Translations under genes and position numbers: made by a program | From: an uncultured bacterium | GTDB lineage: Bacteria > Vulcanimicrobiota > CADAWZ01 | DNA: 33,799 bases | Direction: 5' to 3' | NCBI GenBank assembly: GCA_902790465.1 | Contig: CADASF010000046.1 | Span: forward strand, 1-33,799 | Part shown: one piece after another, positions 1,043 through 32,196 of the stretch | How the letters are laid out: each line of letters begins with the position of its first letter | Position numbering within the stretch: position 1 is the stretch's first letter | Notes under the pieces: generated by a model | What the model saw: only the letters and a program-made list of their open reading frames with translations | Database searches by the model: none | What the model was told of the DNA's origin: nothing

Positions 1043-3562
1043 TTATGCTAATTCGATTTTGTCAACAGATGAGTTTTCAGAAATTACTATTAAACTCAAA
1101 AGTGCTATTTGATTTACTTCAAGTTCAACAGTTACTTCTTGCTCGCCTTTTTCAATTATATTGAAAGCATCGTTGTCTTCAATCAATTTAAGGGTATCTT
1201 CTGGAACAGTGATGAATTTTATTCTCACTTTGATTTTTCCGTTTTTGTCAATGACTTTTTTCTTGACAACATTTTTAATCTCGTCTTTCAAAACTTCGAG
1301 ATCGTATTTGTCGTTTTTCTGAGTTTCATTGATTTTTTCAAAAAGAGCATTTAGATATTTGTCAAACTTCTTCTCGTCATATTCGAGTTTTGTATTTTCA
1401 AGTGCTGGTGGTTCTACATCTTCGATACATTCTTCCATTTCCATTGGCTCATCAACACAGCAATCAGGAGCTTCATCAACACAGCAACCATCTTCTTCAG
1501 GTTCGACACAACACTCAACCAAAGGTTCTGCCATTCGATAACAACATTTTTCAGCTGGTGGAGCTCCAAACATTCCCATAAATCCCTTAGCTATTCCACC
1601 AAACATGCCATTTGCTGGAGGAGAAGCCATTGGGCGACCAAGCCCTGGAGGAGTTAATGGTTGTCCAAATTGTTGTGGTATTGCTCCACCACAAGCAAGA
1701 GGTGCCATTCTGTCTGCTTGTGTAGATTCAAATCCCTCTCTACTTACTCCACTTGGAAATTCAGAAGGAACTTCTTTATGTTCGAGTTTTCCATCTTCAT
1801 TTACAACTTTGTCTTCAACTGCAACAAAAGATGTATAGAGTGTAGCAAGTCCAAAATCAAGTCCCAATTTTATTATTGTTTGTTTTATCTTGTTATCATC
1901 TCTATCTTTGCCTCTAAAGTTGTCTCTGTCGCTGTAATATTCGATTTTTCTTCTTGCCCAGAGATATGGAAGGCTTTCATATCTTGAATCTCCATCTTTG
2001 TCGAGTACAAAGTCAATTTTCTTTTTGATTGTCTCTCCTGCAACTGTTCCTGTAACTGTTACAGAGCCTTTTCCACCTTTTTTATAAGTTCCGATGAGTA
2101 TAAGAGGTTTGTTGCTATATAGATCAGGAAGATTCTTGGGATATATTTCAGAGATTTTATCGCCAGACCAACTCAATTCGATATTTGTCATCAATGGGCT
2201 GTCTATTTTTTTGAAAAATGCGTCTGCAACTTTTTGCATATTTTCGTTTTCTTTATCTCTATTTCGATATGTAACTGTTATTATTTCAGAGTCTCCTCTT
2301 CCAGCTTCTGCCATTTTTGTGATTAGGTATCTATTTACTGAATCACCTGTTCCAAAAGAAAATACTCTTGTGTTTTTCTTGCATTTTTTATCTATTGCAT
2401 TTATTATTTCGTTTTCATTGCTGACATAACCATCTGTCATGATAGTTATGATTCTCAATCTTTCAGGGTCTTCTTTTGCTTTTAGGGCAGCAAGGATTGG
2501 AGGCATCATTTCAGTTCCGCCGCCGCCATTGTGTTGTTTCATAAATTCTCTTGCAAGTTCTCTATTTTTTTCATCAGCAGGCATTGATTTTTTAAACAAA
2601 AATTCGGGAACATTTGAAAAACATATTACATTAAATGTATCGTTTTCATGCATTTTATCAATGCAAAGGTACATTGCTTTTTTACAGGCTTCAAGTGGAC
2701 CTCCCATCTGAGAGCCTGAAGTGTCAACGACAAATATCATTTCTTTTGGAATGATTTTGTAATTTTCAGGTCTTGCAGGTGGCTGAATAATGAGTGAAGC
2801 AAATCCGCCTTTGTCTTTTGTTTTTATTGAAATCAAACCTTCTTCTATTGTTTCACTTCCGAGGCGGTATTTCAATATGAAATCTCTGTTAGGTATTGAA
2901 TCATGTTCAGCTAATTTTATTTTTTTGCTTGTGTCAGATACTTTTTCAACAATGATTTCGTGCAATTCAGAATTTATTTCTTCAATATTTATTGGAGAAT
3001 TGATTTCAACTGAAAGGGAAATATCATGACCTGCTCTTTTGCCTTCTTCAGGATATGCAGGATTTATATTTCCTTCTTTTCCCTCCATTGTTTTTGGAGT
3101 ATAGCGAGGTCCAACAGTCATTGGGAATACATATTCATAAATTCCTTCTTCGTATTTTATGTCTTCAACATATTTTATCAAAATTTTGATTTCATCACCT
3201 GGCATAATGTTTCCGACATGTTGAACGAAGACATTAGGTCTTTCCTCATCAAGTAGAGAAGCTCTTTTTCCTTCTTGGATTGCCTTGTTATATATAGCCT
3301 TCGCCTCTTCTTTTTCTTTTACAATGCCTCTTATTGTCTTGTCTCCTATTTTCATCAACATTTCAAAAACAGCAGACTTTTCAGGAAGAGGGAAAATATA
3401 TTCAGCTTCAATAGGTGTTTCCATTGGATTTGTAAAAATCTGTGTAACTTCTGTAATTCCAATGAAACCAGAAATATTGGCTTTTACATCTGTATGCTTT
3501 AATGGACATACATTTTCTCCTTCACTTGATACGATTCTGAGAACGCCCTCGGTTACTTTCAT
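1043..3562 (-). CDS. VIT domain / von Willebrand factor A domain protein with cysteine-pair insert
   Basis: An 839-residue protein like inter-alpha-trypsin-inhibitor heavy chains. The start is ATG at 3562, seven bases after a strong GGGAGG site (complement of 3571-3576). A further 24 codons upstream are open but have no such site. Domains: VIT beta-sandwich at about 1-130, then a linker, then a VWA domain at about 270-450 with a complete MIDAS metal site: DTSGS (D280, S282, S284), T350 after a GGGG run, and D377 in MTDGY. After a beta-rich segment comes a Gly/Pro/Met-rich stretch and a cysteine-rich acidic insert with paired cysteines at 673/674, 684/685, 693/694 and 701/702 plus C712, then a charged C-terminal domain. 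No signal peptide is seen, so it is probably cytoplasmic. VIT-VWA proteins usually mediate metal-dependent protein-protein contacts; the partner is unknown. It stands alone between its own promoter region and a terminator. Confidence 0.9.
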   Translation of the reverse strand: MKVTEGVLRIVSSEGENVCPLKHTDVKANISGFIGITEVTQIFTNPMETPIEAEYIFPLPEKSAVFEMLMKIGDKTIRGIVKEKEEAKAIYNKAIQEGKRASLLDEERPNVFVQHVGNIMPGDEIKILIKYVEDIKYEEGIYEYVFPMTVGPRYTPKTMEGKEGNINPAYPEEGKRAGHDISLSVEINSPINIEEINSELHEIIVEKVSDTSKKIKLAEHDSIPNRDFILKYRLGSETIEEGLISIKTKDKGGFASLIIQPPARPENYKIIPKEMIFVVDTSGSQMGGPLEACKKAMYLCIDKMHENDTFNVICFSNVPEFLFKKSMPADEKNRELAREFMKQHNGGGGTEMMPPILAALKAKEDPERLRIITIMTDGYVSNENEIINAIDKKCKKNTRVFSFGTGDSVNRYLITKMAEAGRGDSEIITVTYRNRDKENENMQKVADAFFKKIDSPLMTNIELSWSGDKISEIYPKNLPDLYSNKPLILIGTYKKGGKGSVTVTGTVAGETIKKKIDFVLDKDGDSRYESLPYLWARRKIEYYSDRDNFRGKDRDDNKIKQTIIKLGLDFGLATLYTSFVAVEDKVVNEDGKLEHKEVPSEFPSGVSREGFESTQADRMAPLACGGAIPQQFGQPLTPPGLGRPMASPPANGMFGGIAKGFMGMFGAPPAEKCCYRMAEPLVECCVEPEEDGCCVDEAPDCCVDEPMEMEECIEDVEPPALENTKLEYDEKKFDKYLNALFEKINETQKNDKYDLEVLKDEIKNVVKKKVIDKNGKIKVRIKFITVPEDTLKLIEDNDAFNIIEKGEQEVTVELEVNQIALLSLIVISENSSVDKIELA

Positions 3563-3633
3563 TAAACATACCTCCCATTTTTTCTCTTTTGTTAACCTCT
3601 TTTGTCTATCTAAAAGACCAAAGTCGATTTTCA

Positions 3634-3642
3634 CTTATAACA
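3634..3642 (-). promoter_or_regulatory. Possible extended -10 promoter of VIT-VWA gene
   Basis: On the minus strand TGTTATAAG (complement of 3634-3642) matches an extended -10 element (TGn followed by TATAAG), about 70 bases upstream of the chosen ATG. No convincing -35 hexamer sits at the right distance, so this is only a candidate. Confidence 0.3.
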
Positions 3643-10833: not shown

Positions 10834-10923
10834 AGGTCTATAGATTTCGAGTTATATATCTGTAAGAAATTTAAGTAAAAATTCACTTCAGATAATGTTT
10901 GGTATAAGGTGGTGCGGAAGAAT

Positions 10924-13900
10924 ATGGCTGGTGGAAATACAATGGCTCTCCAAAATGAAGCCAATGCTCTTATGAGCCAGGCTCAGTGGGATAAAGCTCT
11001 TGAATTATATGAAAAAATTCTTGCTCAAGATCCTGAAAATGGAGATGCCTGTGTAAATGCTTCTAAAATTTATGCTATACGAGGAAGAATTCCAGAAACA
11101 GTTGAGAAATATCTCTTGCTTATGAAGATAAATCGTAAGTTTGGAGAATATAAATCGGCTCTTGAAAATGCCAAATGGGTTCTTAGACTTCAACCTGAGA
11201 ATATTGATGTTAGAATGCTCAGTATTCAGATTTATAAGCAACAAAAAGATATAAAAGCACTTGTTGCAGAACAAATAAGGCTTGCTCGCATTTTCGTTGA
11301 TTCTGGTAAAGGTGAAGAGGCTATAAAGCTATTAAAAGATGCACAAGAATATGCACCATCTGATTTGAATATAACTCTTCAGCTCGCAGATATATCTATG
11401 AGCCATGGACAGATGTCTGAAGCAGTAAATTACTATAAAATAGCAGCAAATTCATTCTTACAAAGAAAAGAATTTGCCGAGGCTTTGGATGCTTTTCGTC
11501 GTATAAAAGTTATGGCTTCTAATGATGCTAAACTTTTGATGACTCTTGGAAATCTTTATTACATATTGGGAAGATATGCCGAAGCTCAAACTGAGTATAG
11601 AAATATCTTTTCGCATGATATGAATAATAAAAGTGCTTTTATGGCATTTGGTTTTGCAAGCCAAAAGAGAAAATCCCCTAAAGATGCTCTTCTTGGATTT
11701 AACAAAGTTGTTCAGATTGATCCTACAGATCCACTTGCTCTTGAAAAGATTGGTGAGATCAATGAAGAGATGAACAACAATAATGAAGCTATTAAGAACT
11801 ATGTAAATTCTGCCACTAATTATCAGCAAATTGGTGAGCGTGATAGTGCTGTAAAATTATATCAAAGGGTTTTAAAATTAGACCCCACAAATCCTACTGC
11901 AAACCGTGAGCTTACAAGTATGGGAGCTCCATTTGAATCAGATACTTGCAATGAACCTGCTGAATTTAATCCACAGATAGATGAAATTACAGATTATAGT
12001 TTTGTTCTTCCTAATAATAAAGAAGAATCTGATGTGGATAGCACTTCTTCTTCTGATTCTCACGAACATATATATTCAAGAGACAGAGGAACAAGTTCTT
12101 CAAGAGATTCTTCTGACAAAGAAGATAGAAGTCATATGCTTGTAAGAAAAGATTCAGGCGGTGGCGGAAAATTAATGGCAAAAGGCTTTGGCAAAAAAGG
12201 CGGAATGGGACGTCCAATGTTAGGCGGTGGCGGTGAAGAAGAAGATGACGGAGGAATGTTCAAGTCTAAGTTTGGTAAAAAAGGCGGTCTAAAAGGTAAA
12301 GCCGCTAAACCAGTTCTTAAATCTAAAGCCCAAAGAGAAGAAGAAGCAAGACTTCAAAGAGAAGCAGAACTTGCTGAACAGAGAGAAAGAGAAGCACAAG
12401 AAGCAAAAGCAAAAGTTAACTTATCTAAGTCTTCTGATGCCGATTCTGAATTTATGCTTCAGCCTCCAGATTCTTCTGCACAATTACAAGATTCAAAAGA
12501 TATTACAACAGATATAGATCCAAATCTTCAACCACCTTCATTCGGTGGAGAAATGCCAAATGATTCATCTTTATTTGGTGGAGATTTTGGTGCTTCTGAA
12601 CTTCAACCACCTTCATTTGATGATATACCAAATGCCGATGCCCCATTATTCGGTGGAGATTTTGGTGCTGGTGAGCTCCAGCCACCTTCATTTGGTGATA
12701 TGCCAAATAATGATGCTCCATTATTTGGTGGAGATTTTGGTGCTGGTGAGCTTCAGCCTCCAAATTTTGGTGAAGCTCCAATAGGTAATGATTCACCATT
12801 TGGAGATTTTGGAGGAGATGTACAACCACCAGCTTTTGGCGAAGCTCCAGCAGGTAATGATTCTCCATTTGCTAATTTTGGAAGCGAAATGCAAAATCCA
12901 TCTAATCAAAGTCCTTTTTCAGGAGCATTTGGTGGAGAAGTGAAGCCTCCTGCATTTGAAGAAAATGTAGGCAATGATTCTCCATTTGGTGCTTTTGGCG
13001 ATGAGCAAACACCTCCTTTTGGTGAGCCAGTTGGTGATATGAATTCTCCATTTGGTGCTTTTGGCAATGAACAGGCACCTCCTTTTGGCGAAGCACCAGC
13101 AGGTAATGATTCTCCATTTGCTAATTTTGGTGATGTTCAAGCTCCTGCTTTTGGTGAAGCACCAGCAGGCAATGATTCTCCATTTGGTAGTTTTGGTGAT
13201 GTTCAAGCTCCTGCCTTTGGCGAAGCACCAGCAGGCAATGATTCTCCATTTGGTGGTTTTGGCGATGCTCAAGCTCCTGCCTTTGGCGAAGCACCAGCAG
13301 GCAATGATTCTCCATTTGGTGGTTTTGGCGATGCTCAAACTCCTGCCTTTGGCGAAGTTCCAGCAGGCAATGATTCTCCATTTGGTGGTTTTGGCGATGT
13401 TCAAACTCCTGCCTTTGGCGAAGCTCCAGCAGGCAATGATTCTCCATTTGGTGGTTTTGGCGATGCTCAAACTCCTGCCTTTGGTGAAGCACCAGCAGGC
13501 AATGATTCTCCATTTGGTGGTTTTGGCGATGCTCAAACTCCAGCTTTTGGCGAAGCTCCAGTAGGCAATGATTCTCCATTTGGTGGTTTTGGCGATGTCC
13601 AAACTCCTGCTTTTGGCGAAGCTCCAGCAGGCAATGATTCTCCATTTGGTGGTTTTGGCGATGTCCAAACCCCAGCTTTTGGTGAAGCACCAGCAGGCAA
13701 TGATTCTCCATTTGGTGGTTTTGGCGATGTTCAAACTCCTGCTTTTGGTGAAGCACCAGTTGAAAATACAAAAGTAGCTACTGAAACAGCAGGAGCAGAT
13801 TTTAATGCTGTGCCAGATTTTGGCGATGTTCCTGCATTTGGCGATTTACCAGCATTTGGCGATTTACCAGCATTTGATAGCTCTATGGAAAATACGGGAG

Positions 13901-16893
13901 AAATGCCTTTAGGCTCTGCTGATAATCTTATTGAAAATTCTCAGACAGTAACTCCAGAAGCTCATACTGCAGTATTTGAGTCTTCTAATTCTCCATTTGG
14001 TAATGATGATTCTTTATTTGCTCCTTCAGCCGATCCATTTGCTTCATCTTCTGATCCTTTTGGATCAACATCTGATCCATTTGGTTCATCAAATGAACAG
14101 ACTTCATCTGATTCATTATTTGGAAATAGTAATGATGTTGCTTCTTCCATTTTTGGTGATACAAGTTCAACTTCTGCTTTTAGTGTTTCTTTAAAGAAAG
14201 AAGAGCCTAAACAAGAGAATCTGGAAGAAATTGTAACAGAACCTGTTGATATCCCCATGCCTCTTGATATGGGGATGGGAGCAACATTTGGACCAGTCGA
14301 AGAAAATGTTGAGGCTCCTTCAGCAGATGAGTTGAGTAGTCCATTTGCTCAGGCTCCTTCAGCAGATGAGTTGGGTAGCCCATTTGCACAGGCTCCTTCA
14401 GCAGATGAGTTGGGGAGCCCATTTGCACAGGCTCCTTCAGCAGATGAGTTGGGGAGCCCATTTGCACAGGCTCCTTCAGCAGATGAGTTGGGTAGCCCAT
14501 TTGCACAGGCTCCTTCAGCAGATGAGTTGGGTAGCCCATTTGCACAGGCTCCTTCAGCAGATGAATTGGGTAGCCCATTTGCACAGGCTCCTTCAGCAGA
14601 TGAGTTGAGTAGTCCATTTGCACAGGCTCCTTCAGCAGATGAGTTGGGTAGTCCATTTGCACAGGCTCCTTCAGCAGATGAATTGAGTAGTCCATTTGCA
14701 CAGGCTCCTTCACCAGATGAAACAGCTTCGGTCTTTGAAGTTCCTGAAGTATCAACTGCTACACCAGATGATATAACTGCATTTACTCCAAATGTATCAC
14801 CAGATGCACCTACAATGCAATTTCCACCACGTGATTCTTCAGATATACCAACAGGTAGTCTTTTAGTTTTACCAAATCAAGTTAATATTGTTAATGAAGA
14901 TTCTGCAATGAGCAATATGTTTGCAGGTCTTCCTTTTGAAAAAGATGATTTAAAATTGGAATCTAAAGATAGCAAGAAAGAAGAAAAGAAAATTTCAGCT
15001 ATTGAATTGGTTAAACTTACAGAGAAGGATTTGATAGGAACTTCTGCTCCAACAGGTGATTTAAGTGAAAAAATTTCTCCTGCTAAGTTGTATCAAGAAC
15101 GTTGTGATTCTATAAAAGAAAAAATTGAAGCTAAGGATATATCTGGTGCTATAGATATATATAATCAGCTTTTGGAAGAGAATCCTTCAAATGTTGAGTT
15201 GAGGGCTGATCTTGCTGATTTATATTATACAAATGGTATCTATACTGATGCTCTTGAACAATATTCAATACTTGTTGATAAAGATCCTTCAAGGACAGAT
15301 TATCTCCAAAAACTCATTTTCTTGGGAATATGGGGACAAAATATTGATCTTGCACAGAAAAATCTTTTAAATATAGCTAGACTATATAAGAAAAATGGAG
15401 ATATTCCAACTGCAATAGATTATTATCAATCTGTTTTGGCTGTGGATTCTGAAAATGTTGAAGCAAGAGATGAAATTGTTGACATCTATTTAGATCAAAA
15501 AATGGAAAAGCCTGCACTTCATCATTTGAATATATTGGGAAATATTTCACTTGATAATACTGAACCAAACAGGGCTATTGAGATTTTAAATAAAATACAA
15601 AAATACACAGGACGACAGGATGTTTGCTTAAAACTTGCCCAAGCTTATGATAAAGCAGGAATGTCTGAAGAGGCTTTATCTTCATATAGGTTATTGCTTA
15701 CAAAGTATAGAGAGAGTTCAGATACTCAAAACATTGCTGTATGTCTTGAAAAAATAAAAACACTCACTCCAGATGATGTTTCTGTTTATGATGAATTAGC
15801 TGAAATATATAAGCAACTTGAAGAGAAAGATAAGTTGATCGAAAACAGGCTTGAATTGGGAAGATATTATCTATCTAAATCAATTCAAGATAAGGCTATT
15901 CCTGTCTTTGAGGAAATTGTATCACTTGATCCTTCAAATCAAGGTGCAAGAAAAGTTTTGATTGATATATTTCTTGAAAATAAGGTTTTTGATAAGGCTT
16001 TTGAACATATATCTATTTTATCTGAAATTTACTGTTCTGAAGATAGATTTGATGAAGCTATTGAATTATATGAGAGTTTGATTACTGAAGAACCTAAACA
16101 TCTACCTGCAAGGGATAAATTGCTTTCTGTCTATCTCAAGATAGGTAAGAATGATGAAGCACTAAAAGAATTGATGTTCATGGCAGATGAATATTCTTCA
16201 GTAAATAAATGGAATGAAGCCGTAGAAGTATATAGACGAATTTTGGATTTGACTCCAAATGATGTAAAATCGAGATATGCACTTGGCTGTATATTGAAAG
16301 ATAAACTTGCATCTCAAAATGAGGCTTTGGAAGAATTTAAGAAGGTCTTTGAAATAGAGCCTACATTCGAAGATAATGCAAAATCTTATATAGATTTGTT
16401 GTTTGCTTTAAAGGATCCAACAGGTGCAATGCAAGTTATAAATAAACTCATAGAAGAAGATCCTTCTTGGTCAGAGTATAAGAATTCTATTGTTGAAGAA
16501 TTCAAACAAAAGGCTGATGCAGATAAATCGGATATGATAAACATATTCAACTTAGGAATCATATATAAAGAATTGAAACAGTATGATGATGCTATTAAGC
16601 AATTCCAAATAACTAAAAAGCAGTATGAATTCTTCATTGATTCAGCAATTCAACTTGCACTGTGCTTTAATGTAAAGCCAGCAATGAAATCTTTGGCTAT
16701 GAGAACTCTTGCCAAAGATTTAAAAGATGCTCGATTTAAAGACAGTGAAAAAATAGAAATGAAATATGTTCTTGCAGGCTTTTATGAAGCTGCAGGCAAA
16801 ACTAAGGAAGCCCTGAATCTCTACATTGAGGTTGAGACCGAACAGAAGGGATATAAGGATGCTTCTGAAAAAATTAGGTTGCTAAACAACTAA
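10924..16893 (+). CDS. Giant TPR protein with central FG-rich tandem-repeat domain
   Basis: About 1,989 residues. The N-terminal ~335 residues are TPR helices (for example AQWDKALELYEKIL, YKIAANSFLQRKEF). Next comes a Ser/Asp/Gly/Lys-rich stretch (about 370-520) with GKK and GFG clusters. Then a disordered Pro/Gly/Phe/Asp-rich region (about 530-1300) holds three successive repeat families: about three 25-residue LQPPSFGD units, ten regular 22-residue units containing GNDSPFGGFGD (722-941) and ten 13-residue APSADELGSPFAQ units (1131-1260). I count more than fifty Phe-Gly dipeptides. The C-terminal ~600 residues (from about 1390) are again TPRs. There is no signal peptide or membrane span, so the protein is cytoplasmic. 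ATG 10924 follows AAGGTGGT (10906-10913) at a slightly long spacing; GTG 10909 and ATG 10942 (GGTGGA six bases upstream) are alternatives. It heads the cluster that ends at 23408. Function is unknown; a scaffold or condensate-forming role is inference. Confidence 0.92.
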   Translation: MAGGNTMALQNEANALMSQAQWDKALELYEKILAQDPENGDACVNASKIYAIRGRIPETVEKYLLLMKINRKFGEYKSALENAKWVLRLQPENIDVRMLSIQIYKQQKDIKALVAEQIRLARIFVDSGKGEEAIKLLKDAQEYAPSDLNITLQLADISMSHGQMSEAVNYYKIAANSFLQRKEFAEALDAFRRIKVMASNDAKLLMTLGNLYYILGRYAEAQTEYRNIFSHDMNNKSAFMAFGFASQKRKSPKDALLGFNKVVQIDPTDPLALEKIGEINEEMNNNNEAIKNYVNSATNYQQIGERDSAVKLYQRVLKLDPTNPTANRELTSMGAPFESDTCNEPAEFNPQIDEITDYSFVLPNNKEESDVDSTSSSDSHEHIYSRDRGTSSSRDSSDKEDRSHMLVRKDSGGGGKLMAKGFGKKGGMGRPMLGGGGEEEDDGGMFKSKFGKKGGLKGKAAKPVLKSKAQREEEARLQREAELAEQREREAQEAKAKVNLSKSSDADSEFMLQPPDSSAQLQDSKDITTDIDPNLQPPSFGGEMPNDSSLFGGDFGASELQPPSFDDIPNADAPLFGGDFGAGELQPPSFGDMPNNDAPLFGGDFGAGELQPPNFGEAPIGNDSPFGDFGGDVQPPAFGEAPAGNDSPFANFGSEMQNPSNQSPFSGAFGGEVKPPAFEENVGNDSPFGAFGDEQTPPFGEPVGDMNSPFGAFGNEQAPPFGEAPAGNDSPFANFGDVQAPAFGEAPAGNDSPFGSFGDVQAPAFGEAPAGNDSPFGGFGDAQAPAFGEAPAGNDSPFGGFGDAQTPAFGEVPAGNDSPFGGFGDVQTPAFGEAPAGNDSPFGGFGDAQTPAFGEAPAGNDSPFGGFGDAQTPAFGEAPVGNDSPFGGFGDVQTPAFGEAPAGNDSPFGGFGDVQTPAFGEAPAGNDSPFGGFGDVQTPAFGEAPVENTKVATETAGADFNAVPDFGDVPAFGDLPAFGDLPAFDSSMENTGEMPLGSADNLIENSQTVTPEAHTAVFESSNSPFGNDDSLFAPSADPFASSSDPFGSTSDPFGSSNEQTSSDSLFGNSNDVASSIFGDTSSTSAFSVSLKKEEPKQENLEEIVTEPVDIPMPLDMGMGATFGPVEENVEAPSADELSSPFAQAPSADELGSPFAQAPSADELGSPFAQAPSADELGSPFAQAPSADELGSPFAQAPSADELGSPFAQAPSADELGSPFAQAPSADELSSPFAQAPSADELGSPFAQAPSADELSSPFAQAPSPDETASVFEVPEVSTATPDDITAFTPNVSPDAPTMQFPPRDSSDIPTGSLLVLPNQVNIVNEDSAMSNMFAGLPFEKDDLKLESKDSKKEEKKISAIELVKLTEKDLIGTSAPTGDLSEKISPAKLYQERCDSIKEKIEAKDISGAIDIYNQLLEENPSNVELRADLADLYYTNGIYTDALEQYSILVDKDPSRTDYLQKLIFLGIWGQNIDLAQKNLLNIARLYKKNGDIPTAIDYYQSVLAVDSENVEARDEIVDIYLDQKMEKPALHHLNILGNISLDNTEPNRAIEILNKIQKYTGRQDVCLKLAQAYDKAGMSEEALSSYRLLLTKYRESSDTQNIAVCLEKIKTLTPDDVSVYDELAEIYKQLEEKDKLIENRLELGRYYLSKSIQDKAIPVFEEIVSLDPSNQGARKVLIDIFLENKVFDKAFEHISILSEIYCSEDRFDEAIELYESLITEEPKHLPARDKLLSVYLKIGKNDEALKELMFMADEYSSVNKWNEAVEVYRRILDLTPNDVKSRYALGCILKDKLASQNEALEEFKKVFEIEPTFEDNAKSYIDLLFALKDPTGAMQVINKLIEEDPSWSEYKNSIVEEFKQKADADKSDMINIFNLGIIYKELKQYDDAIKQFQITKKQYEFFIDSAIQLALCFNVKPAMKSLAMRTLAKDLKDARFKDSEKIEMKYVLAGFYEAAGKTKEALNLYIEVETEQKGYKDASEKIRLLNN
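12526..12780 (+). repeat. 75-bp tandem repeats in giant TPR gene (LQPPSFGD family)
   Basis: About three diverged units encoding the motif LQPPSFGDMPNNDAPLFGGD followed by FGAGE, 25-26 residues each, precede and grade into the 66-bp array. They share the PF/FG pattern with the later arrays, suggesting they all arose from a common short motif. Confidence 0.75.
13087..13746 (+). repeat. Ten 66-bp tandem repeats in giant TPR gene (GNDSPFGGFGD family)
   Basis: Ten in-frame units of exactly 66 bp encode GEAPAGNDSPFGGFGD followed by (V/A)Q(A/T)PAF. Units differ mainly at third codon positions and at V/A and T/A choices. The lengths are all multiples of three, so copy number can vary without breaking the frame. 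The array also creates long antisense open frames that are not genes. Confidence 0.95.
14314..14703 (+). repeat. Ten 39-bp tandem repeats in giant TPR gene (APSADELGSPFAQ family)
   Basis: Ten full in-frame 39-bp units plus a degenerate eleventh (14704-14742). Variation is limited almost entirely to Gly/Ser at one position and a few silent changes, pointing to recent expansion or ongoing homogenisation. The SPF core is shared with the 66-bp family. Confidence 0.95.
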
Positions 16894-16948
16894 TTGATAT
16901 GTTTTTAATGATTTGATAATATAATTAACGCAGTCTGTGATTTTTCGG

Positions 16949-16963
16949 AAGCCTCGGAGGTTT
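16949..16963 (+). promoter_or_regulatory. Small hairpin overlapping the ribosome binding site of the second TPR gene
   Basis: AAGCCT (16949-16954) can pair with AGGTTT (16958-16963) around a CGG loop, tying up part of the GGAGG site (16956-16960) six bases before the ATG at 16967. The stem is short and includes one G-U pair, so any effect on translation is speculative. The GGAGG itself fixes the start of the downstream gene. Confidence 0.3.
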
Positions 16964-16966
16964 TTT

Positions 16967-19900
16967 ATGGCAAGTAAAGAGTTTGAAATGTTTGTAGAAC
17001 AGGCAGATCGGCTTGCTTCACAAGGTAGGTTGGAAGAAGCTGTTGATATGTATCAACGTGCTCTTTCAATCGAACCAAATGATGTGGCAGTTAGGCATAA
17101 TGTCATTAATATTTATATAAAAAGTGGTGAATTTGAACCAGCCGTTTCTGAATATCTTCAATGGGCAAAAGTGTGTCAAGAAAATGGCTTGATAGACGAT
17201 GCTATTGCTGTCTATAATGAACTTAATGATTTGGAAAATCAAGTTTCTAAAAAAAGTTTCATGATGGGACAGAGAAGTGCTGTTGGAGATATAATAAAAG
17301 AACTGGTTGGAAGAGTTAGACCTGATGTTTATTACAATGTTGGAGTTCTACTCCAAGCAAAGGGTTTAATAGACAGTTCAATCGTTTATTTAAAGGCTTG
17401 CTTAGAACTTTCTCCGCCAGATTCTACTGCTCGTGTGCACATGGTTCTTGGTCAGGCATATATGAAAAAAGGTATGGACAGAGAAGCTATTGGAGAGTTT
17501 CAAGAAGTTGTAAGACTTGCTCCAATGGATGCTGCTTATGCCTATGAAATGCTTGGAGAAATATTCATTAGAGGTGGAAGAACTCCTAATAGCACTGTTA
17601 ATTGGTTTAGAAGTGCAAGCGAACTTTATTTAAAAAATAGTCAAATTCTTGATGCCATAAGAGTTTTTGAGCGTATATTGAATTTTGATGCAAGAAATAA
17701 AGATGTTCTTACTGCTCTTTCAGAGATTTATTCTCAGAGAGGACAAATAGATAAATCTATAGATGTTTGTTTGAAACTTGCTAAAATTTATGAAGATGAG
17801 GGGCTTTTCGATAAAGTTGAGGCTATGTATGAGCAACTTACAGAATGGGCTCCAGATAATTTAGATTTCAGACAAAAGTTAATTGATATTTACCGTAAAA
17901 TATTAAATGCAGACCCTGGAAATTTAATTGCAAGACACAAACTCATAAGTATTTTCCTAAATAATGGTTCTACTGAAGAAGCTATTCCAGAATTTCTTCT
18001 TTTGGCTTCTACATATCTTGAAAAAGGTATGTTCCAAGAGGGAATTTCTGTCTGTGAGAAAATGCTTGACATAGACCCAGAGAACTTAAAGGCAAATGAG
18101 ACATTGGGAGAAATTTATTTTAGAGAGGGAGATAGTGATAGAGCTCTCGATCAATTTCTCCATGTTGTTAAGTTGCTTAGAGACCGTGGAGATACAGAAG
18201 CAGCAGATCAGTTAAATAAAGACCTTGTAAAGAGATTTCCACAACAGATAGAGATTTATTACCAACAGGCAATAGAAGAAAAGGAAAAAGGTAATTTTAC
18301 AAGTGCACTTTCAATTCTTGATTCTCTTATAAAAGATAATCCACAATATAAGCAGGCCATGTTTGCAAGAGCTGATGTTTTTGTCAAACAAAATAAATGG
18401 GATGAAGCATTTGCTCAGTATAATGAGATACTTGCAATAGACCCTAATTATATTGAAGTCAGAAAGATTTTGCTTGAAAAATATCTTGCAGATGGTGACT
18501 TGGATAAGGCTCTTGCTGAAAGCAATGAAATGGCATTGAGACTCTTTAATAAGGGTGATTATAGAGAAAGTGAAAATCTCTATAGGAGAATGTTGACTTA
18601 TTTGCCAGATGATCCTGAAATAAGAGAGAAAATATGTGAAGTTCAATCTGAAAGAGGACATATAGAAAAAGCTATGTCTGGCTATCTCATAATATATGAG
18701 ATATATTTCCGCAAAAATGATATTCAGCATGCCATAGATATATGTAATAAAATTTTGAAATTAAGTCCTGAAAATGTTTTTGCAAAGAGAAAACTTGCTG
18801 ATTTATATAAAAATTCAGATCCTAAAAAGGCTGTCGAAATTTATTCTGATGTGGCTAATTTCTATATGGATAAAAAACTTGAAAAGCCAGCAGCAGATAT
18901 TTTTGGAGAAATTCTTGAGATATCGCCAGAAGAAAATGATATAAGACAGAAATTAATAGGTATTTATATTAAGCAGGTAAGATTTGAAGAAGCAACTTCA
19001 CATTATAGATATCTTTTGATGGATTATCTAAAAATAGGAAATTATCCAAAAGCTCGTGAAACTGTAAAAGATATAATAGCACTTCAACCTTTCGATCTTG
19101 CAATGAGAGAAGAACTTGGAGCTATATATATTGATTATAATCTTCTCAGTGAAGCTATGGAAATTTTTGAGGAACTCGTTCATGGTTATACAGAAAAAGG
19201 CGATTCTCAAAAAGTTATAGATTTGAATTTGAAATTAGAACAACTTGCTTCTAAGCAGAAAAATCGTTCTCTTGCTTGGGATTATTCTATTAAAGCAGCT
19301 GAATTATATTATAAAGATGAAAAGTATGACGAAGCTACTGAAAAATATTTGTCAACTCTAAAACAGATGATAGAATATGATGAATATGATAGGGAAGCTG
19401 TTGTTTTTGATAGTTTAATAGGTATATATAAATTTAGAGATAATATTGATGAAGGTATTGCTAAATTAGATTCTATTGCACATGAATTTATAGAATCTGG
19501 TGATATTGATAAAAGTCTTGTACTTTTTGAGCAGATTGAAAAAGTTTATGAGAATAATAAGGAATTTGAAAAAGCTCTTAAAGTTCTTGATTTCTTATCA
19601 TCACATTATGAGGAACTTGGAGATATTTCTGAATCACTCAGAGTAAGACAATCTATGAGTGATCTATACTTCAATCTTGATAAGAATGATGGTAATAGAA
19701 AAGATGATATTGTAGAGAATTACTTTACAATGATAGACTTGGCTTTGAAGAGAGATATGCCTTCTGAAGCATGTACATATTATGATGAGATAGATAAGAT
19801 TAAACCAAATGATTCACCTTCTGTTTTGAGAATGGCTCAAATATTGTTTAATGCAAACTTTATGAATGAGAGTCTTCCATTCTTTGAGAGACTTTTGGAA

Positions 19901-20440
19901 ATCGATCCTAACTCCCATGAGGCAATGTCTCATTTGGCTATAATTCATGCCAATAATTCAAATTATGATCAGGCTATAGTTTATGCTTCTAAGATATTGA
20001 CAATAGGAAATATCGCTTCTGTGATAAAAGAATATCGCAAAATGGTATTTGAAAATTCTTCTGAGGGAGAAGCTCACATGAATTTAGGTAAATTTTATGA
20101 AGCACTTGGATTCCCAGAAGAAGCTGTTGCAGAATATAATGAAGCCACTAAGACTGAGAATAGTAAAGTTGAAGCTCAGAATCAAATTGGATCAATATTC
20201 CTCAAACAAAAATTTTATAATCTTGCTATATCTCAATTCCAAAATATTTTGGCTGAGGGAATTGATGATGAAGAGAGAGAACAAGCAACAAGATATAATC
20301 TCGCAGAAGCATTCTTTTGCCAAGAACAATATGAAGAGGCACTTACAATGTATGAAGAATGTTATGCAGTTGATATCAGTTATAGAGATGTTGAAGAGAA
20401 GATCGCTAAACTTGTTGAAATGATAGAAGGAAATAATTGA
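16967..20440 (+). CDS. Large TPR-repeat protein
   Basis: A 1,157-residue protein made almost wholly of TPR-like helix pairs from end to end, for example GRLEEAVDMYQRALSIEPND near the N-terminus and QYEEALTMYEECYAVD near the C-terminus. No enzyme motif, signal peptide or membrane span is seen. The start is ATG 16967, six bases after GGAGG; an earlier in-frame ATG at 16937 lacks a site. It lies 73 bases after the giant TPR gene on the same strand, and the two N-termini are similar (a short lead followed at once by the first TPR), so they are probably diverged paralogues. It lacks the FG-rich insert. A superhelical scaffold that binds extended peptides is the expected role; partners are unknown, with its own cluster as the obvious candidates. 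Confidence 0.92.
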   Translation: MASKEFEMFVEQADRLASQGRLEEAVDMYQRALSIEPNDVAVRHNVINIYIKSGEFEPAVSEYLQWAKVCQENGLIDDAIAVYNELNDLENQVSKKSFMMGQRSAVGDIIKELVGRVRPDVYYNVGVLLQAKGLIDSSIVYLKACLELSPPDSTARVHMVLGQAYMKKGMDREAIGEFQEVVRLAPMDAAYAYEMLGEIFIRGGRTPNSTVNWFRSASELYLKNSQILDAIRVFERILNFDARNKDVLTALSEIYSQRGQIDKSIDVCLKLAKIYEDEGLFDKVEAMYEQLTEWAPDNLDFRQKLIDIYRKILNADPGNLIARHKLISIFLNNGSTEEAIPEFLLLASTYLEKGMFQEGISVCEKMLDIDPENLKANETLGEIYFREGDSDRALDQFLHVVKLLRDRGDTEAADQLNKDLVKRFPQQIEIYYQQAIEEKEKGNFTSALSILDSLIKDNPQYKQAMFARADVFVKQNKWDEAFAQYNEILAIDPNYIEVRKILLEKYLADGDLDKALAESNEMALRLFNKGDYRESENLYRRMLTYLPDDPEIREKICEVQSERGHIEKAMSGYLIIYEIYFRKNDIQHAIDICNKILKLSPENVFAKRKLADLYKNSDPKKAVEIYSDVANFYMDKKLEKPAADIFGEILEISPEENDIRQKLIGIYIKQVRFEEATSHYRYLLMDYLKIGNYPKARETVKDIIALQPFDLAMREELGAIYIDYNLLSEAMEIFEELVHGYTEKGDSQKVIDLNLKLEQLASKQKNRSLAWDYSIKAAELYYKDEKYDEATEKYLSTLKQMIEYDEYDREAVVFDSLIGIYKFRDNIDEGIAKLDSIAHEFIESGDIDKSLVLFEQIEKVYENNKEFEKALKVLDFLSSHYEELGDISESLRVRQSMSDLYFNLDKNDGNRKDDIVENYFTMIDLALKRDMPSEACTYYDEIDKIKPNDSPSVLRMAQILFNANFMNESLPFFERLLEIDPNSHEAMSHLAIIHANNSNYDQAIVYASKILTIGNIASVIKEYRKMVFENSSEGEAHMNLGKFYEALGFPEEAVAEYNEATKTENSKVEAQNQIGSIFLKQKFYNLAISQFQNILAEGIDDEEREQATRYNLAEAFFCQEQYEEALTMYEECYAVDISYRDVEEKIAKLVEMIEGNN

Positions 20441-20630: not shown

Positions 20631-20664
20631 TAATTTTGATTTGTATTTGTCTGGAGGGTATAAA

Positions 20665-21567
20665 GTGAATTTACCAAAAGGAAATAAGTTGTTTGAAAAA
20701 GTAGCACTTAATAGCAATGATATAAAAATTCTGACGGATAATCTCGCCAAAAATAAATTTTCTGGTTATATAAATTTGGAGATAAATACCGCCAATATGA
20801 GATGGAGAGGGATATTGTTTTATTCCCTTGGTTTGAATAAAACATCTTTTGAGATTGATAACAACAACAATTTTAAGTTGATGAAATCAGCTTCTCGAGT
20901 ATTGGGTAAGGTTAAAAATTCGGGAGCAGTTGTATCTGTTTATATTTTTTCTCCAAAGATTGTTGATGTTTTATCTAATTTTTATCTTTTTTCCGATATA
21001 GCCAATAGAGAGCCATTGAAAAGAAAAGAATTTGGAAAACTTTTAGATGAATGCAAAGATACTGGCATGTATAGTATTATGGAAATTGAGGCAAGAGGTT
21101 CTAAAAATCTTCTCGTAATGGAACAGGGAAATTTTATTTCAGACCCTTGTGCAGAGTATTTTGGTGATATTTTGACAAACCAAGAACAGATAGATGAATT
21201 TGTTGCATTTGTAACTACAAATGGTGGAACTATAACAAGGTCTGGAATAAATTTGGAAGATATGAGAAGAAAAGAAGCTGAAGCTCAGAGAATACTTCAA
21301 CTTGAAAAAGAGTTGGGAGTTATAGTAGCTGGTGGATTCTTTGCAAGTAATGATATAAAAATTGATGAAATTACTATTGGACAGTGGGGATTAGGAAAGA
21401 AAGCAGGAGTTGATATTGAGATAACAACTCATAAAGGTCTCATTACTACAACAAAATGTATTCCTGGAAAAGGAATGACTCAGGGAACTATTTCTATTCC
21501 ACAGGCATTTTGTAAGAGTTTGAATGTAAATAATGGAGAGTTGATTACTGTAAGACCGTTAATTTAA
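20665..21567 (+). CDS. Unknown protein with possible PATAN/DUF4388-like modules and C-terminal beta-barrel
   Basis: A 300-residue soluble protein. The start is GTG 20665, six bases after GGAGGG (20653-20658); the in-frame TTG at 20641 lacks a site. The first ~190 residues show two segments with the pattern of PATAN/DUF4388 modules: a FSGYINLEIN strand followed by RGILFYSLG, and a TGMYSIMEIEARG strand followed by LLVMEQGNFIS. A charged helix (about 205-225) links to a C-terminal ~80-residue beta-rich domain ending SIPQAFCKSLNVNNGELITV, which resembles AbrB or double-psi beta-barrel folds. These assignments are by eye and tentative. PATAN modules are typically protein-interaction parts of bacterial signalling proteins, and its place directly before two Roadblock genes supports a signalling role (inference). 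Confidence 0.8.
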   Translation: MNLPKGNKLFEKVALNSNDIKILTDNLAKNKFSGYINLEINTANMRWRGILFYSLGLNKTSFEIDNNNNFKLMKSASRVLGKVKNSGAVVSVYIFSPKIVDVLSNFYLFSDIANREPLKRKEFGKLLDECKDTGMYSIMEIEARGSKNLLVMEQGNFISDPCAEYFGDILTNQEQIDEFVAFVTTNGGTITRSGINLEDMRRKEAEAQRILQLEKELGVIVAGGFFASNDIKIDEITIGQWGLGKKAGVDIEITTHKGLITTTKCIPGKGMTQGTISIPQAFCKSLNVNNGELITVRPLI

Positions 21568-21603
21568 GATTGATATTTTATTTTTTTGATAGGAGAAAAT
21601 TTT

Positions 21604-21966
21604 ATGAATTCGATAAAAGATGCGTTAGATGCTCTTTGTAGGATAGATGGTGTTACTTATGCATCATTTGTCGATGCAGAAGGAGAGTTGATTGAGGCCT
21701 CTGGAGATGAACCTGAAAAGTTTTTAATGCCTGGAAGTTTTGTAAATGCTCTTAGAATGCTTTGCGAGCAGATAGACTCCCAATATCCAGTTGAAAATAT
21801 GAGTCAGTCTTATATTGAATTTGAAGATTTCAATTTTACCTGTGTTCCTATTGCAGAGTATTTTCTTTGTATAATAGCTTCTTCAGGTGTAAATTTAGGT
21901 CGTGTTAGACTTGAAATTAAAAAGAATAGAAAACATTTAGAAGCCGTTGTTTCTGTAAGTGAATAG
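21604..21966 (+). CDS. Roadblock/LC7-domain protein
   Basis: A 120-residue protein that is essentially one Roadblock/LC7 (MglB-like) domain: an N-terminal helix (IKDALDALCRIDGV), the strand ASFVDAEGELIEASG, a central helix containing FVNALRMLCEQID, then strands FEDFNFTCVPIAEYFLCIIA and a final helix after LGRVRLEI. ATG 21604 has AGGAG (21591-21595) eight bases upstream, ruling out the TTG at 21586. Bacterial Roadblock proteins dimerise and act on Ras-like small GTPases (MglB activates MglA); others serve as scaffolds. No GTPase is encoded in the window. It lies between the PATAN-like gene and a second, larger Roadblock gene, 36 bases from the first and 41 from the second, so all three are likely in one transcript. 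Confidence 0.8.
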   Translation: MNSIKDALDALCRIDGVTYASFVDAEGELIEASGDEPEKFLMPGSFVNALRMLCEQIDSQYPVENMSQSYIEFEDFNFTCVPIAEYFLCIIASSGVNLGRVRLEIKKNRKHLEAVVSVSE

Positions 21967-22007
21967 TATATAACATATTGTATTGTTCTATAAGAGGAGG
22001 TATTTCA

Positions 22008-23408
22008 ATGTCTAAAACGACTATTGAGCGGAAAATAGAAGCCTTGAAATCTTTACTTGATGAATATCCAAATGATCTTGAAACATTAGTTGCCTATGCT
22101 GAATATCAAATGAGATTTGGAAGTAGGCTTGAGGCACTTCAAACATATCAACATGCTTTATCAGTTGATAGTAATAGTTTTGAAGCTCGTTTGGGGCTTT
22201 CTGTGATTTATATGCACCATGGGCTTTATGAAGATGGTTTTTCTGAATTGATTAAAATTCTTAAATCTGATTCTAAAAATGTAGATGCAAGAATTTATTA
22301 TGATTATTTTGCATCTTTACATGAGCCTTCAAGAGATATATCAGATGAATATGCAAAGTTGCCTTTGTGTGAATATACTCTTAAAGATATTAGAGTAATA
22401 CAAGCACATTTTGATTCTTTAGATGAACTTTCTAAGTTGACCATTTCTGGCTTTGATGATTTGATTCAAGAGACAGATGGTGAGTTATTGTATGAATATG
22501 GTAAGGAAGTTGCTTTAAAGAGACATGAAGATATTGATATTTTTAAGAACCATCTTGTAAATTTAGAAGATAATATTTTAGATTCTATAAAAGAAATTAA
22601 AAGAGCTAAAAGAGAAAAAATTGAGAATTCTTTTCTTCAAGAAGAAAAGGTTAAGATGGAGGAAGAAGCTATTCGTCTTGAAGAGATAAGAAGAAAAGAA
22701 GAAGAAGAAAAGAGAAGACTTGAGGAAGAAATAAGACTAGCTCAGGAAGAAATTAGACGAGCTGAGGAAGAGAGACTAAGACTTGAAGAAGAGGCACGCA
22801 GAGCTGAGGAAGAAAGACTAAGAAGGGAAGAAGAAGAACGCAGAGCTGAAGAAGAAAGACTAAGAAGAGAAGAAGAAGAACGCAGAGCCGAAGAAGAGAG
22901 AATTAGGCTTGAAGAAGAGGCACGCAGAGCCGAAGAAGAGAGAATTAGAAGAGAAGAAGAAGAACGCAGAGCTGAAGAAGAGAGAATCAGAAGAGAAGAA
23001 GAAGAACGTAAAGCTGAAGAAATCAGACAGAAGATGGCAAAATATGACGATCTTAGACCAGCATTGTGTGAGGCCATGCAGACAATAGGAAAACACAGAG
23101 GAGTCAATTCTGTATTACTTATTGAGAGAGATGGTTTAGAGGTTGCCGCTATAAGTCCAGAACTTGATTATTCACTTTATCCTAAATTTACTTCTGAAGT
23201 TCTTGAATTGATTGATTCTCATTATTCTGCAGGTTCTCCATCTCCACTTTTATACGCTGTTCTTGAATATAAGGGTGGTCTTATTGCATTGAGAGTTGTA
23301 GCTTCGAATTATCTCCTTGCTGTAATTGCAGGTAGTTCTTCTAACTTTGGTGTTCTTCGTTATAGCATGGAAAAAGTCAGTGAGAGACTTTGTGAAATGC
23401 TTGATTAG
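22008..23408 (+). CDS. TPR - charged single alpha-helix - Roadblock fusion protein
   Basis: A 466-residue protein with three parts. Residues 1-120 form TPR-type helices (FGSRLEALQTYQHALSVDSN). A further helical region leads to about 205-345, an unbroken Glu/Arg/Lys-rich helix built of 14-residue units such as EERLRREEEERRAE; its alternating charge pattern suits a stable single alpha-helix rather than a conventional coiled coil, and would span roughly 20 nm if straight (0.15 nm per residue). The last ~120 residues are a second Roadblock domain (strands VNSVLLIERDGLEVAAIS and GGLIALRVVASNYLLAVIAG, final helix after FGVLRYS). ATG 22008 has GAGGAGG seven bases upstream. It is the last gene of the cluster. 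The helix would hold the Roadblock domain at a fixed distance from the TPR head (inference). Confidence 0.88.
   Translation: MSKTTIERKIEALKSLLDEYPNDLETLVAYAEYQMRFGSRLEALQTYQHALSVDSNSFEARLGLSVIYMHHGLYEDGFSELIKILKSDSKNVDARIYYDYFASLHEPSRDISDEYAKLPLCEYTLKDIRVIQAHFDSLDELSKLTISGFDDLIQETDGELLYEYGKEVALKRHEDIDIFKNHLVNLEDNILDSIKEIKRAKREKIENSFLQEEKVKMEEEAIRLEEIRRKEEEEKRRLEEEIRLAQEEIRRAEEERLRLEEEARRAEEERLRREEEERRAEEERLRREEEERRAEEERIRLEEEARRAEEERIRREEEERRAEEERIRREEEERKAEEIRQKMAKYDDLRPALCEAMQTIGKHRGVNSVLLIERDGLEVAAISPELDYSLYPKFTSEVLELIDSHYSAGSPSPLLYAVLEYKGGLIALRVVASNYLLAVIAGSSSNFGVLRYSMEKVSERLCEMLD
22660..23028 (+). repeat. 42-bp tandem repeats encoding the charged helix
   Basis: In-frame units of 42 bp encode variants of EERIRREEEERRAE. 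They are purine-rich on the plus strand and homogenised in blocks (alternating LEEEARRAE and REEEERRAE forms), indicating growth by tandem duplication. Antisense serine-rich open frames here are by-products. Confidence 0.85.
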
Positions 23409-29376: not shown

Positions 29377-30546
29377 ATGCCATTATATGAATATTATGCT
29401 TATAACAGATCTGGAAAATTAATAACAGGACTTATTGATGCTCGTTCAAATAAAAATGCTTATGAAAAGTTGAAAGCAAATAATTTATTTCCTCATAAGA
29501 TATCTGTTGATTCTAAGCCTGTTTCAAAATCAGCTCTTACAAATGATAGATTGTCTTTTGTATTAGTACAATTAGCTACTTTATTAAAAGCAGGAATACC
29601 TATAGATAGAGCTGTTGATTCTGTTTTAGGTCAGACTGATTCTAAAGATATGAGTAGAGTTCTTGCAAGAATAAAGACTTTTATTTTAGAGGGCAAGAGT
29701 TTTTCTGGGGCTATGAAAGAAGAAAAAAGTCTTCCTCCTCTTTTAATAAAAATGGCAGAAGCTGGTGAATCTGTTGGAAATCTTGAAACAATATTGGAAA
29801 ATTATGCACTTTTTCTTGAGAAAGAATCTGAATCAGCAAAAAAAATGGTAAGTGCTTTGATATATCCAACTGTTGTTGTGTGTGCAAGTGTTTTATTGAT
29901 TTTGTTTATTTTGACATATATAACACCTATTTTATCAGATATTTTTAATTCTTTTGGAAGACAACTTCCTTTTATAAGTTCAATTCTTGTTTCATTTGGA
30001 ACATTCTTGAAGAATAATTTTTTGATTTTATTTGTTGTCATTGCTTTAGCTATTTTTATTTTTACAAAATATGTTCCTAAAAAAGTTAAAGATGATTTGA
30101 AAATTTTGTTTCCTTATACTGGTGAAGCATATAAATTTATGGTATATTCGAGATGGGCTAGAACTCTTGGAATGTTACATGGAGGTGGTATTCCTCTTTT
30201 AAAATCTCTTGAATCTGCAAGAAAAGTTACAGATAATGAATCTATAGAAAAAGATTTGGTATATGTTGAGGGTAAAGTTGAAAAGGGGGAATCTTTTTCA
30301 AAAGCTCTAAGTATTGTTTTTCCTCCTCTTATTGTGAATATGGTTGAAACTGGGCAACAAACAGGTGAACTTGCTAAAATGATGAATTCTGTTGCTGATT
30401 TTTATGAAAAAGAAGCAGATAGAAAAATAAATATTTTTTTGAAGTTGTTTGAACCTGCAATGATAATTGCACTTGGAATAACAATTGGATTTATTGTAGT
30501 ATCTGTACTTCTTCCAATTTTTGAAATAAATTCTATTGTGAAATAA
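29377..30546 (+). CDS. Type IV pilus / type II secretion inner-membrane platform protein (PilC/GspF)
   Basis: A 389-residue protein starting with the family pattern MPLYEYYAYNRSGKLITG. It has two tandem T2SSF domains, one at about residues 55-175 (LSFVLVQLATLLKAGIPI, then KMAEAGESVGNLE) and a second at about 255-380 (YSRWARTLGMLHGGGIPLLK, then NMVETGQQTGELAKMM). Three hydrophobic segments lie at about 160-190, 212-232 and 362-385. The protein forms the inner-membrane platform that the assembly ATPase turns to add or remove pilins. No pilin, ATPase (PilB/PilT) or secretin gene accompanies it here; the next genes are a HEAT-repeat protein and an acidic-repeat protein, so it is isolated from a standard pilus operon. 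ATG 29377 is chosen on family start; AGGA lies upstream. Confidence 0.93.
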   Translation: MPLYEYYAYNRSGKLITGLIDARSNKNAYEKLKANNLFPHKISVDSKPVSKSALTNDRLSFVLVQLATLLKAGIPIDRAVDSVLGQTDSKDMSRVLARIKTFILEGKSFSGAMKEEKSLPPLLIKMAEAGESVGNLETILENYALFLEKESESAKKMVSALIYPTVVVCASVLLILFILTYITPILSDIFNSFGRQLPFISSILVSFGTFLKNNFLILFVVIALAIFIFTKYVPKKVKDDLKILFPYTGEAYKFMVYSRWARTLGMLHGGGIPLLKSLESARKVTDNESIEKDLVYVEGKVEKGESFSKALSIVFPPLIVNMVETGQQTGELAKMMNSVADFYEKEADRKINIFLKLFEPAMIIALGITIGFIVVSVLLPIFEINSIVK

Positions 30547-30624: not shown

Positions 30625-32196
30625 ATGTTTGATGAGTTAATTCAGTTGTTACCTATCAATATAGATAAATTAGAAAAAGACAAAGATGTTAGAAAATTGA
30701 GAAATATTTTGACTAAATATAAAGACCCTACTAAAAGAATGAAGGCTGCTTATGCTTTAGGGAGAATCACAGGTGATCCCTATGATAAACAGGCTGAAAC
30801 TATTTTGTCAAATGTTGCAAGTGATGAGAGTCAAGATCCTGCAATAAGAAATCATTGTGTTTTGAGTCTTGGTAAACAGCAGACAGAAAATTCTAAATTA
30901 ACTCTTTTTGAGTTTTTACATAGTAATTCTGAGGCTTTAAGAGCAAGTGCTATAAGAGCATTGTCCGATTTTAAAACTCCAGATGTAGCTGTTGAAGTAG
31001 CAAATACATTTAAAGGTACTACATCTGATAAAATTATTTCTGCTGTATCTGATTCACTTGAGGGGGCAAATCAAAAAGCTGTTGTTACTTTAAATGATGC
31101 TCTTTTTAATGAGAATGAACAGCAGAGAGCTAAGGCTTGTAGAGATTTAAATTATGCTAAGTCAAAAAGAGTTATTGAATTTCTCGTCAGTTTGCTAAAT
31201 GGAGAAGATGAATTTTTGAGAAGACGCTCTGCAATGGCTTTGGCAAGCATAGAATCTGAAATTGTGATATCACCTTTGATGGCGAGACTTGATAAGGAAA
31301 AGGGAGATAATTTAAAGAATTTGTATTTGGCTATTGGAAAAATAAAATCTGATAAAACCCTTGATTGTCTTTTGACTGGTCTTGATAGTGATGATCCAGA
31401 TATAAAAGGTTCTTGTATTTATGGTCTATGTGAGAAAAAATCAGATAAGGCAGTATCAAGATTGATTGATATTTTATCTGATTCCACTGAAAAGGAAGAG
31501 TATAGAATTGCAATCGTAAAATATTTGGGGAAAACTAAAAATAAAAATGCAATGAATGTTATGGTTGCCTTGATTAGGAATTCTTCAGAAGCTCTTTGTA
31601 ATAAGATACAGGAAGCATTGATTGAAATGAATTTACCAGATTTGCCGACACTTCTTCAGCCTTATTTGTCTTCTTCTTCTGATTCAGAAAGACTTGTTGC
31701 TGTTAAAATTTTGACTAAAATTCAAAAGCCAGGAAGTGCTTCGATGTTGTTCCCATTGCTGAAAGATAGTGTTCCTGATATAAGGAATTTGGTTATAATT
31801 GGTCTTGGTGGATTTAAAGATCCAGATGTTTCAGATGAACTTTTAAATATTGCACAAGATAGAAGTCAACCTTCTCAATTAAGAGGACAATCTACTCGTT
31901 CTATCGGTATGATTGCTGATTCAAGAATGATATATCCACTTTTTGAACTTCTCAAAGATAGTGATGAATATGTCAGAGGAAGTGCTGCTTTTGCACTTGG
32001 TAGTTTTAAGAATCCTGAAGTTATTGATGTTTTAGGAAATGCTATGAATGATAAATCTGATTTTGTTAGAAGTATGGTTGTTGAAGCTTTTGGTTATTTA
32101 AAAGATCCTAAAGCACTTGAATATCTCAAAAAAGCAAGAGAGGATTCAAGTGATAAGGTCAAGGGTGTAGTTGCAAGGGTTTTGAGAAATATGTAA
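30625..32196 (+). CDS. HEAT-repeat protein (PBS-lyase-like repeats)
   Basis: A 523-residue protein made of about 30-residue helical repeats throughout, with typical HEAT/PBS-lyase-type units such as DEYVRGSAAFALGSFKNPEV and DPAIRNHCVLSLGKQ. No catalytic motif, membrane span or signal peptide is seen. Such proteins are alpha-solenoid interaction scaffolds; some act as adaptors of cyclases, GTPases or phycobilin lyases, but nothing here points to one of these. ATG 30625 follows GAGGT at a normal spacing. It lies 78 bases after the PilC/GspF gene and 19 bases before the acidic-repeat gene on the same strand, so the three probably share a transcript. Confidence 0.9.
   Translation: MFDELIQLLPINIDKLEKDKDVRKLRNILTKYKDPTKRMKAAYALGRITGDPYDKQAETILSNVASDESQDPAIRNHCVLSLGKQQTENSKLTLFEFLHSNSEALRASAIRALSDFKTPDVAVEVANTFKGTTSDKIISAVSDSLEGANQKAVVTLNDALFNENEQQRAKACRDLNYAKSKRVIEFLVSLLNGEDEFLRRRSAMALASIESEIVISPLMARLDKEKGDNLKNLYLAIGKIKSDKTLDCLLTGLDSDDPDIKGSCIYGLCEKKSDKAVSRLIDILSDSTEKEEYRIAIVKYLGKTKNKNAMNVMVALIRNSSEALCNKIQEALIEMNLPDLPTLLQPYLSSSSDSERLVAVKILTKIQKPGSASMLFPLLKDSVPDIRNLVIIGLGGFKDPDVSDELLNIAQDRSQPSQLRGQSTRSIGMIADSRMIYPLFELLKDSDEYVRGSAAFALGSFKNPEVIDVLGNAMNDKSDFVRSMVVEAFGYLKDPKALEYLKKAREDSSDKVKGVVARVLRNM

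Follow-up and report, generated by a model that had tools for sequence, protein, structure and literature searches.

Background

SgmX of Myxococcus xanthus is a cytoplasmic protein with TPR at both its N- and C-terminus, and is important for the polar localisation of PilB (PMC7519303). Bd2492 of Bdellovibrio has the same build (PMC3983030), and both proteins are connected with type IV pili and with the MglA/MglB (Roadblock) system (PMC7519303; PMC3983030). PATAN proteins have likewise been linked to the pilus motor in cyanobacteria (PixE and PilB1) (PMC7690835). In eukaryotes, human Nup98 has 7.8 Phe-Gly (FG) dipeptides per 100 residues, the hallmark of Nup98 domains is charge depletion (D+E 0.0–0.5%), and PFG and PAFG contexts are known in plant Nup98 (PMC4283134). 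Eps15, an endocytic adaptor, carries arrayed DPF motifs in a disordered tail, which mediate multivalent weak binding (PMC4921775).

Here these systems are compared with a TPR-linker-TPR scaffold protein encoded in a stretch of 33,799 nucleotides from an uncultured gut bacterium (contig CADASF010000046.1), referred to as the window. On balance, we favour the reading that this protein is a cytoplasmic, SgmX-like TPR scaffold belonging to a type IV pilus control cluster specific to the phylum, and that its linker constitutes a multivalent array of aromatic motifs.

Architecture of the scaffold protein

The features of the scaffold gene and of the genes following it are given in Table 1. Alignment with the protein from a second genome of the same genus (G001) suggests that the ATG near position 10924 may be the true start of the open reading frame. 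The protein has TPR at its N- and C-terminus, and neither a transmembrane segment nor a signal peptide was found, the latter being judged by eye from the sequence. An AlphaFold2 run based on five sequences left residues 508–1200 at a pLDDT of about 30 and without secondary structure, and the charge-hydropathy of the array also points to disorder. A preliminary description of this DNA had placed a disordered, FG-rich segment between two alpha-solenoids; TPR are indeed present on both sides of the linker (Pfam TPR_19, E value 1e-64), and no ordered fold is predicted over residues 540–1200.

The basic segment contains two KPxL/RPxL motifs against 0.2 expected, and relatives contain up to nine, also against 0.2. 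This module close to the N-terminal TPR is kept as motifs, often repeated, in most lineages of the phylum. Across the phylum, conservation of its KPxLGG, RPGL and KGL forms, in the window and in the linkers of relatives, is broader than that of the FG array.

Table 1. Coordinates of the scaffold gene, its parts and the downstream genes in the window
Feature	Coordinates	Strand	Remarks
TPR-linker-TPR scaffold gene	10909..16893	+	ORF, 1,994 aa
N-terminal TPR solenoid, residues 9-350	10933..11958	+	profile match; pLDDT ~90-96; best-conserved part
Basic Gly-rich segment, residues 415-471	12151..12321	+	KPxL/RPxL motifs (GRPML, KPVL)
Single long predicted helix, charged, residues 472-508	12322..12432	+	AlphaFold2
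FG array 1, residues 540-950	12526..13758	+	49 FG; 22-aa unit SPFGGFGDVQTPAFGEAPAGND, three F per unit
Degenerate F-rich region, residues 951-1140	13759..14328	+	9 FG; DPFG/DPFA/SLFG
Array 2, residues 1141-1278	14329..14742	+	13-aa unit APSADELGSPFAQ with a single F (SPFA), zero FG
C-terminal TPR solenoid, residues 1386-1994	15064..16890	+	profile matches, relatives
Second TPR protein (TPR2)	16937..20440	+	1,167 aa; next gene
308-aa protein	20641..21567	+	ortholog group matches DUF4388
Roadblock/LC7 protein	21586..21966	+	MglB-like
TPR - charged repeat - Roadblock-like C-terminus protein	21978..23408	+	C-terminus called Roadblock-like from a cross-match to a relative's Roadblock gene (L136)

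Neither tRNAs nor RNA families were found in the window. Elsewhere it encodes a VIT-VWA protein (1043–3634) with a Cys-rich C-terminal tail (ECCVEPEEDGCCVDEAPDCCVDEP) and no evident signal peptide. An acidic low-complexity ORF (32216–33799), open at the contig end, is built of 72/144-nt and 27-nt tandem arrays (EEPEKVDSELESK; EEVTESEK) and has no Pfam match.

Composition of the linker and comparison with nucleoporins

The linker interval, 12526–14742, corresponds exactly to residues 540–1278 and contains 58 FG, whereas its composition predicts 10.9 ± 2.9 and the maximum among 5,000 shuffles was 23; the earlier claim of more than fifty is therefore borne out. The predominant contexts are SPFG (13), PAFG (13), SPFA (12) and GGFG (8), so that the contexts previously described are present. 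However, FG does not span the whole interval, being limited to residues 540–1127, and array 2 has none. At the DNA level the linker is made up of 75-nt units (12571–12871), a 66-nt unit repeated 12 times (12969–13759) and a 39-nt unit repeated 10.5 times (14312–14720). The FG copies arose by tandem duplication of a motif-bearing unit and therefore do not represent 58 independent gains. Within the 12 full-length 22-aa units of array 1 the three F codons are invariant and at least six other positions vary; in tandem copies as young as these, such invariance is weak evidence of selection. The array occurs once in its genome, and a sequence comparison of the array with solved structures gave no match up to an E value of 10.

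The density of FG across the linker, 7.8 per 100 aa, equals that of human Nup98 and rises to 11.9 in array 1. Together with the predicted disorder and the PFG/PAFG contexts shared with plant Nup98, this is the case for a cohesive, condensed cytoplasmic FG phase of the nucleoporin kind, which would either enrich pilus regulators or form a selective barrier; the basic segment could, in addition, partly neutralise the acidic array. The charge of the linker argues against it: 117 D/E and 5 K/R among 739 residues (D+E 15.8%, K+R 0.7%, net −112) are to be set against the near absence of D+E from Nup98. Furthermore, GLFG and FxFG are absent (0 of each), the FG lie in tandem 22-aa units, and orthologs retain the acidity and not the FG, in a gene context of type IV pili rather than of a barrier. 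Charge depletion is thus clearly failed by the linker, and therefore cohesion cannot be assumed. A specific likeness to cohesive FG nucleoporins is not supported, and the view that the resemblance is convergent is supported. We regard an FG phase of this kind as quite improbable and nucleoporin-like selectivity as unlikely; condensate formation by the linker is possible.

We read the DPF array of Eps15 as the closer functional model, because the array of the scaffold is acidic, Pro-rich and variable in its flanking residues. Both proteins have many Pro-Phe tripeptides in a disordered region, and the orthologs of family f14 have actual DPF repeats. This similarity, too, is convergent, and an AP-2 or muHD partner is not expected in bacteria.

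Evolution of the linker in the protein family

A profile search with the N-terminal TPR indicated that the phylum, probably Eremiobacterota (Vulcanimicrobiota at NCBI), has the scaffold family in 29 of its 149 genomes. Brachyspira as the host, which composition had suggested, is rejected, as no hits fell there and the class contains just five genomes. A pattern search of the genome contigs with the C-terminal TPR recovered no relatives, whereas the N-terminal alignment did find them. Approximately 14 complete or nearly complete orthologs share the N-terminal TPR, a linker of ~210 to 1,340 aa and the C-terminal TPR; several linkers are incomplete because many contigs stop within the array. The position of the linker is conserved among the orthologs and its sequence is not. 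SPFG and PAFG are the units in the window's own genome (G000) and in G001. The linker of G002 has PDFGSALEA units (PDFG, 9), that of G004 has PSLE/PSFE and SPFFDVP, and G134–G137 have DPFA/DPFG units, with 67 DPFA and 16 DPFG in G137. In G139 the units are DLFG/GLFD (DLFG, 11), in G140 SDFGQSSFAPPTPA with SDFGQSSFA units, in G144 QQFVGADVSGEQLGAEVPYEE, and in G146 and G148 EELFAG, and the linkers of G141 and G143 are composed of tyrosine units. DLFD and SPFF also serve as units at the FG position. Few aromatics are found in the linkers of G006, G007, G009, G013, G131 and G133. The orthologs of families f3, f5, f9 and f13 have shorter linkers with almost no aromatics, and therefore the family can do without the array. 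Placed on the N-terminal TPR tree, FG-enriched linkers imply two or more changes, and the unit types seven or more. The net charge is negative in all measured lineages, ranging from near neutral to −0.24 per residue.

The linker is best read as fast-evolving. The main rival to our interpretation is that it is a passive spacer grown by slippage, i.e., a low-complexity repeat under little constraint in which F is incidental. The huge differences among lineages in unit sequence, length and aromatic content are what such a spacer would display, as are the lineages that have no aromatic units and the recent origin of the arrays by tandem duplication. It accounts less well for the FG-enriched linkers of at least two separate lineages, in which 9–60 FG are found and 1–11 expected, or for the finding that F lies mostly in [D/S/G/P]-[P/L/A/D]-F-[G/A/D]; in G135, 52 DPFA and 35 DPFG comprise 87 of the 114 F. 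Moreover, F is constant over the 12 units of array 1, and neutral slippage is not expected to keep picking the same motif. Hence we consider a passive spacer unlikely, albeit not negligibly so.

Linkage to type IV pili

The order scaffold, TPR2, 308-aa protein, Roadblock and TPR-Roadblock is conserved over many families. In 13 genomes from nine families (G004, G006, G007, G009, G011, G013, G132, G133, G139, G140, G141, G146 and G148), pilQ is located directly upstream of the scaffold gene; where the retrieved sequence reaches far enough, pilM/pilN/pilO and pilT/pilC are found upstream of pilQ. PilM is present in all 20 cluster-bearing genomes tested; a PilT-family match, found in 110 of 147 genomes, is uninformative as a phylum profile. 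Against the pilus reading, the gene is no longer beside the pilus operon in the window's own family, f1, in which an ABC-F gene lies upstream, and pilQ linkage is also lacking in genus g64 of f14. In the genome of the window, pilM and pilT lie on another contig (G000:C15). A PilC/GspF-like inner-membrane protein is encoded on the same contig as the scaffold (29377–30546), away from the main pilus operon, and is followed by a HEAT-repeat protein (30625–32196).

Wzy_C/TPR membrane genes come after the cluster in some relatives (G004), which would fit control of exopolysaccharide rather than of the pilus, the scaffold then serving the adjacent O-antigen-ligase-like/TPR membrane protein. The pilQ linkage is, however, broad and tight, and the window locus has no such gene. 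We consider this alternative very improbable.

The results from profile analyses indicate that the Roadblock gene resembles MglB, which is its best named relative among PDB structures (E value 4e-8). PF03259 is matched by 10 of 11 orthologs, and the window copy scores just below the Pfam cut-off (19.4 vs 23). Unlike the MglB systems, the cluster has no MglA partner among the 11 genomes searched: no GTPase of MglA size was found in them, and PF00025 matches only long-frame GTPases (389–1,272 aa). The 308-aa protein belongs to a group in which 11 of 15 members match DUF4388, the domain that we take to be one with PATAN. In this respect it resembles the PATAN pilus regulators, from which it differs in having no fused receiver; the window copy by itself gives no match, and its model, built from two sequences, was too poor for a fold search (pLDDT 48.5). 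In relatives, the genes near those for the Roadblock proteins include one for a GAF histidine kinase and one for a CheY-like receiver.

Relatives usually have a protein with one transmembrane segment encoded between TPR2 and the 308-aa gene, where the window has no gene. In six of eight such proteins the motif [DEG]x[FWI][KREA]xL[L] occurs two to three times per protein (0.02–0.1 expected). Cytoplasmic tails with repeated DPFKALL, DPWKALL or DAWEALL are encoded at L081:8365-9957, L124:9269-10540, L131:10236-11585, L135:10478-11005, L137:7708-8757, L140:10099-11667 and L141:4735-5664. In the TPR-Roadblock protein, 21/42-nt repeats encode a charged RAEEERLR coil whose unit and length vary among relatives, making it a second repeat-variable linker of the cluster. 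All five genomes of genus g64 have a second N-TPR relative adjoining a homolog of the 308-aa protein (G134:C77, G135:C144, G136:C58, G137:C4 and G138:C138).

The scaffold thus resembles SgmX and Bd2492 in being cytoplasmic, in having TPR blocks at both ends of an unassigned middle, and in being linked by its genes to pili and Roadblock proteins. It differs in scoring far below the cut-off of the SgmX model NF052243 (109.9 vs 1800 bits), in the lack of a detected MglA, in its operon and in its long repeat array. A search of the open-access literature returned no relevant paper on pilus or TPR proteins with FG repeats in bacteria and none on the cluster, which suggests that the whole pilus control cluster, comprising a Roadblock protein without MglA, a DUF4388-like protein, two TPR scaffolds and a membrane anchor, is still undescribed.

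Proposed role of the scaffold

In the mechanism that we propose, the two TPR solenoids would bind structured partners, among which we infer TPR2, the Roadblock and DUF4388-like proteins, and pilus base or motor proteins. The acidic linker would act as a multivalent array of weak F-centred linear motifs in a Pro/Gly/Ala/Asp context, similar to the DPF arrays of Eps15, and would gather multiple partner copies, or more than one scaffold, close to the base of the pilus, where it might affect the pili. Because the pilus cluster is conserved and the middle of the scaffold has been filled by different F-centred repeats in one lineage after another, the FG linker of this gut bacterium probably serves a pilus regulator as its multivalent docking arm rather than being a mimic of the nuclear pore. 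A bolder proposal, which we hold to be rather doubtful, is that a pilus regulator evolved eukaryote-like F arrays (FG, DPF, DLFG) more than once in one phylum, and that these make the machinery controlling the pilus condense or cluster with high avidity.

The comparison turns an isolated resemblance into a testable system, in which FG, DPF, DLFG and Y repeat grammars arose at one site of one scaffold. The diversity of the arrays constitutes a natural experiment that bears on which properties matter in a sticker array.
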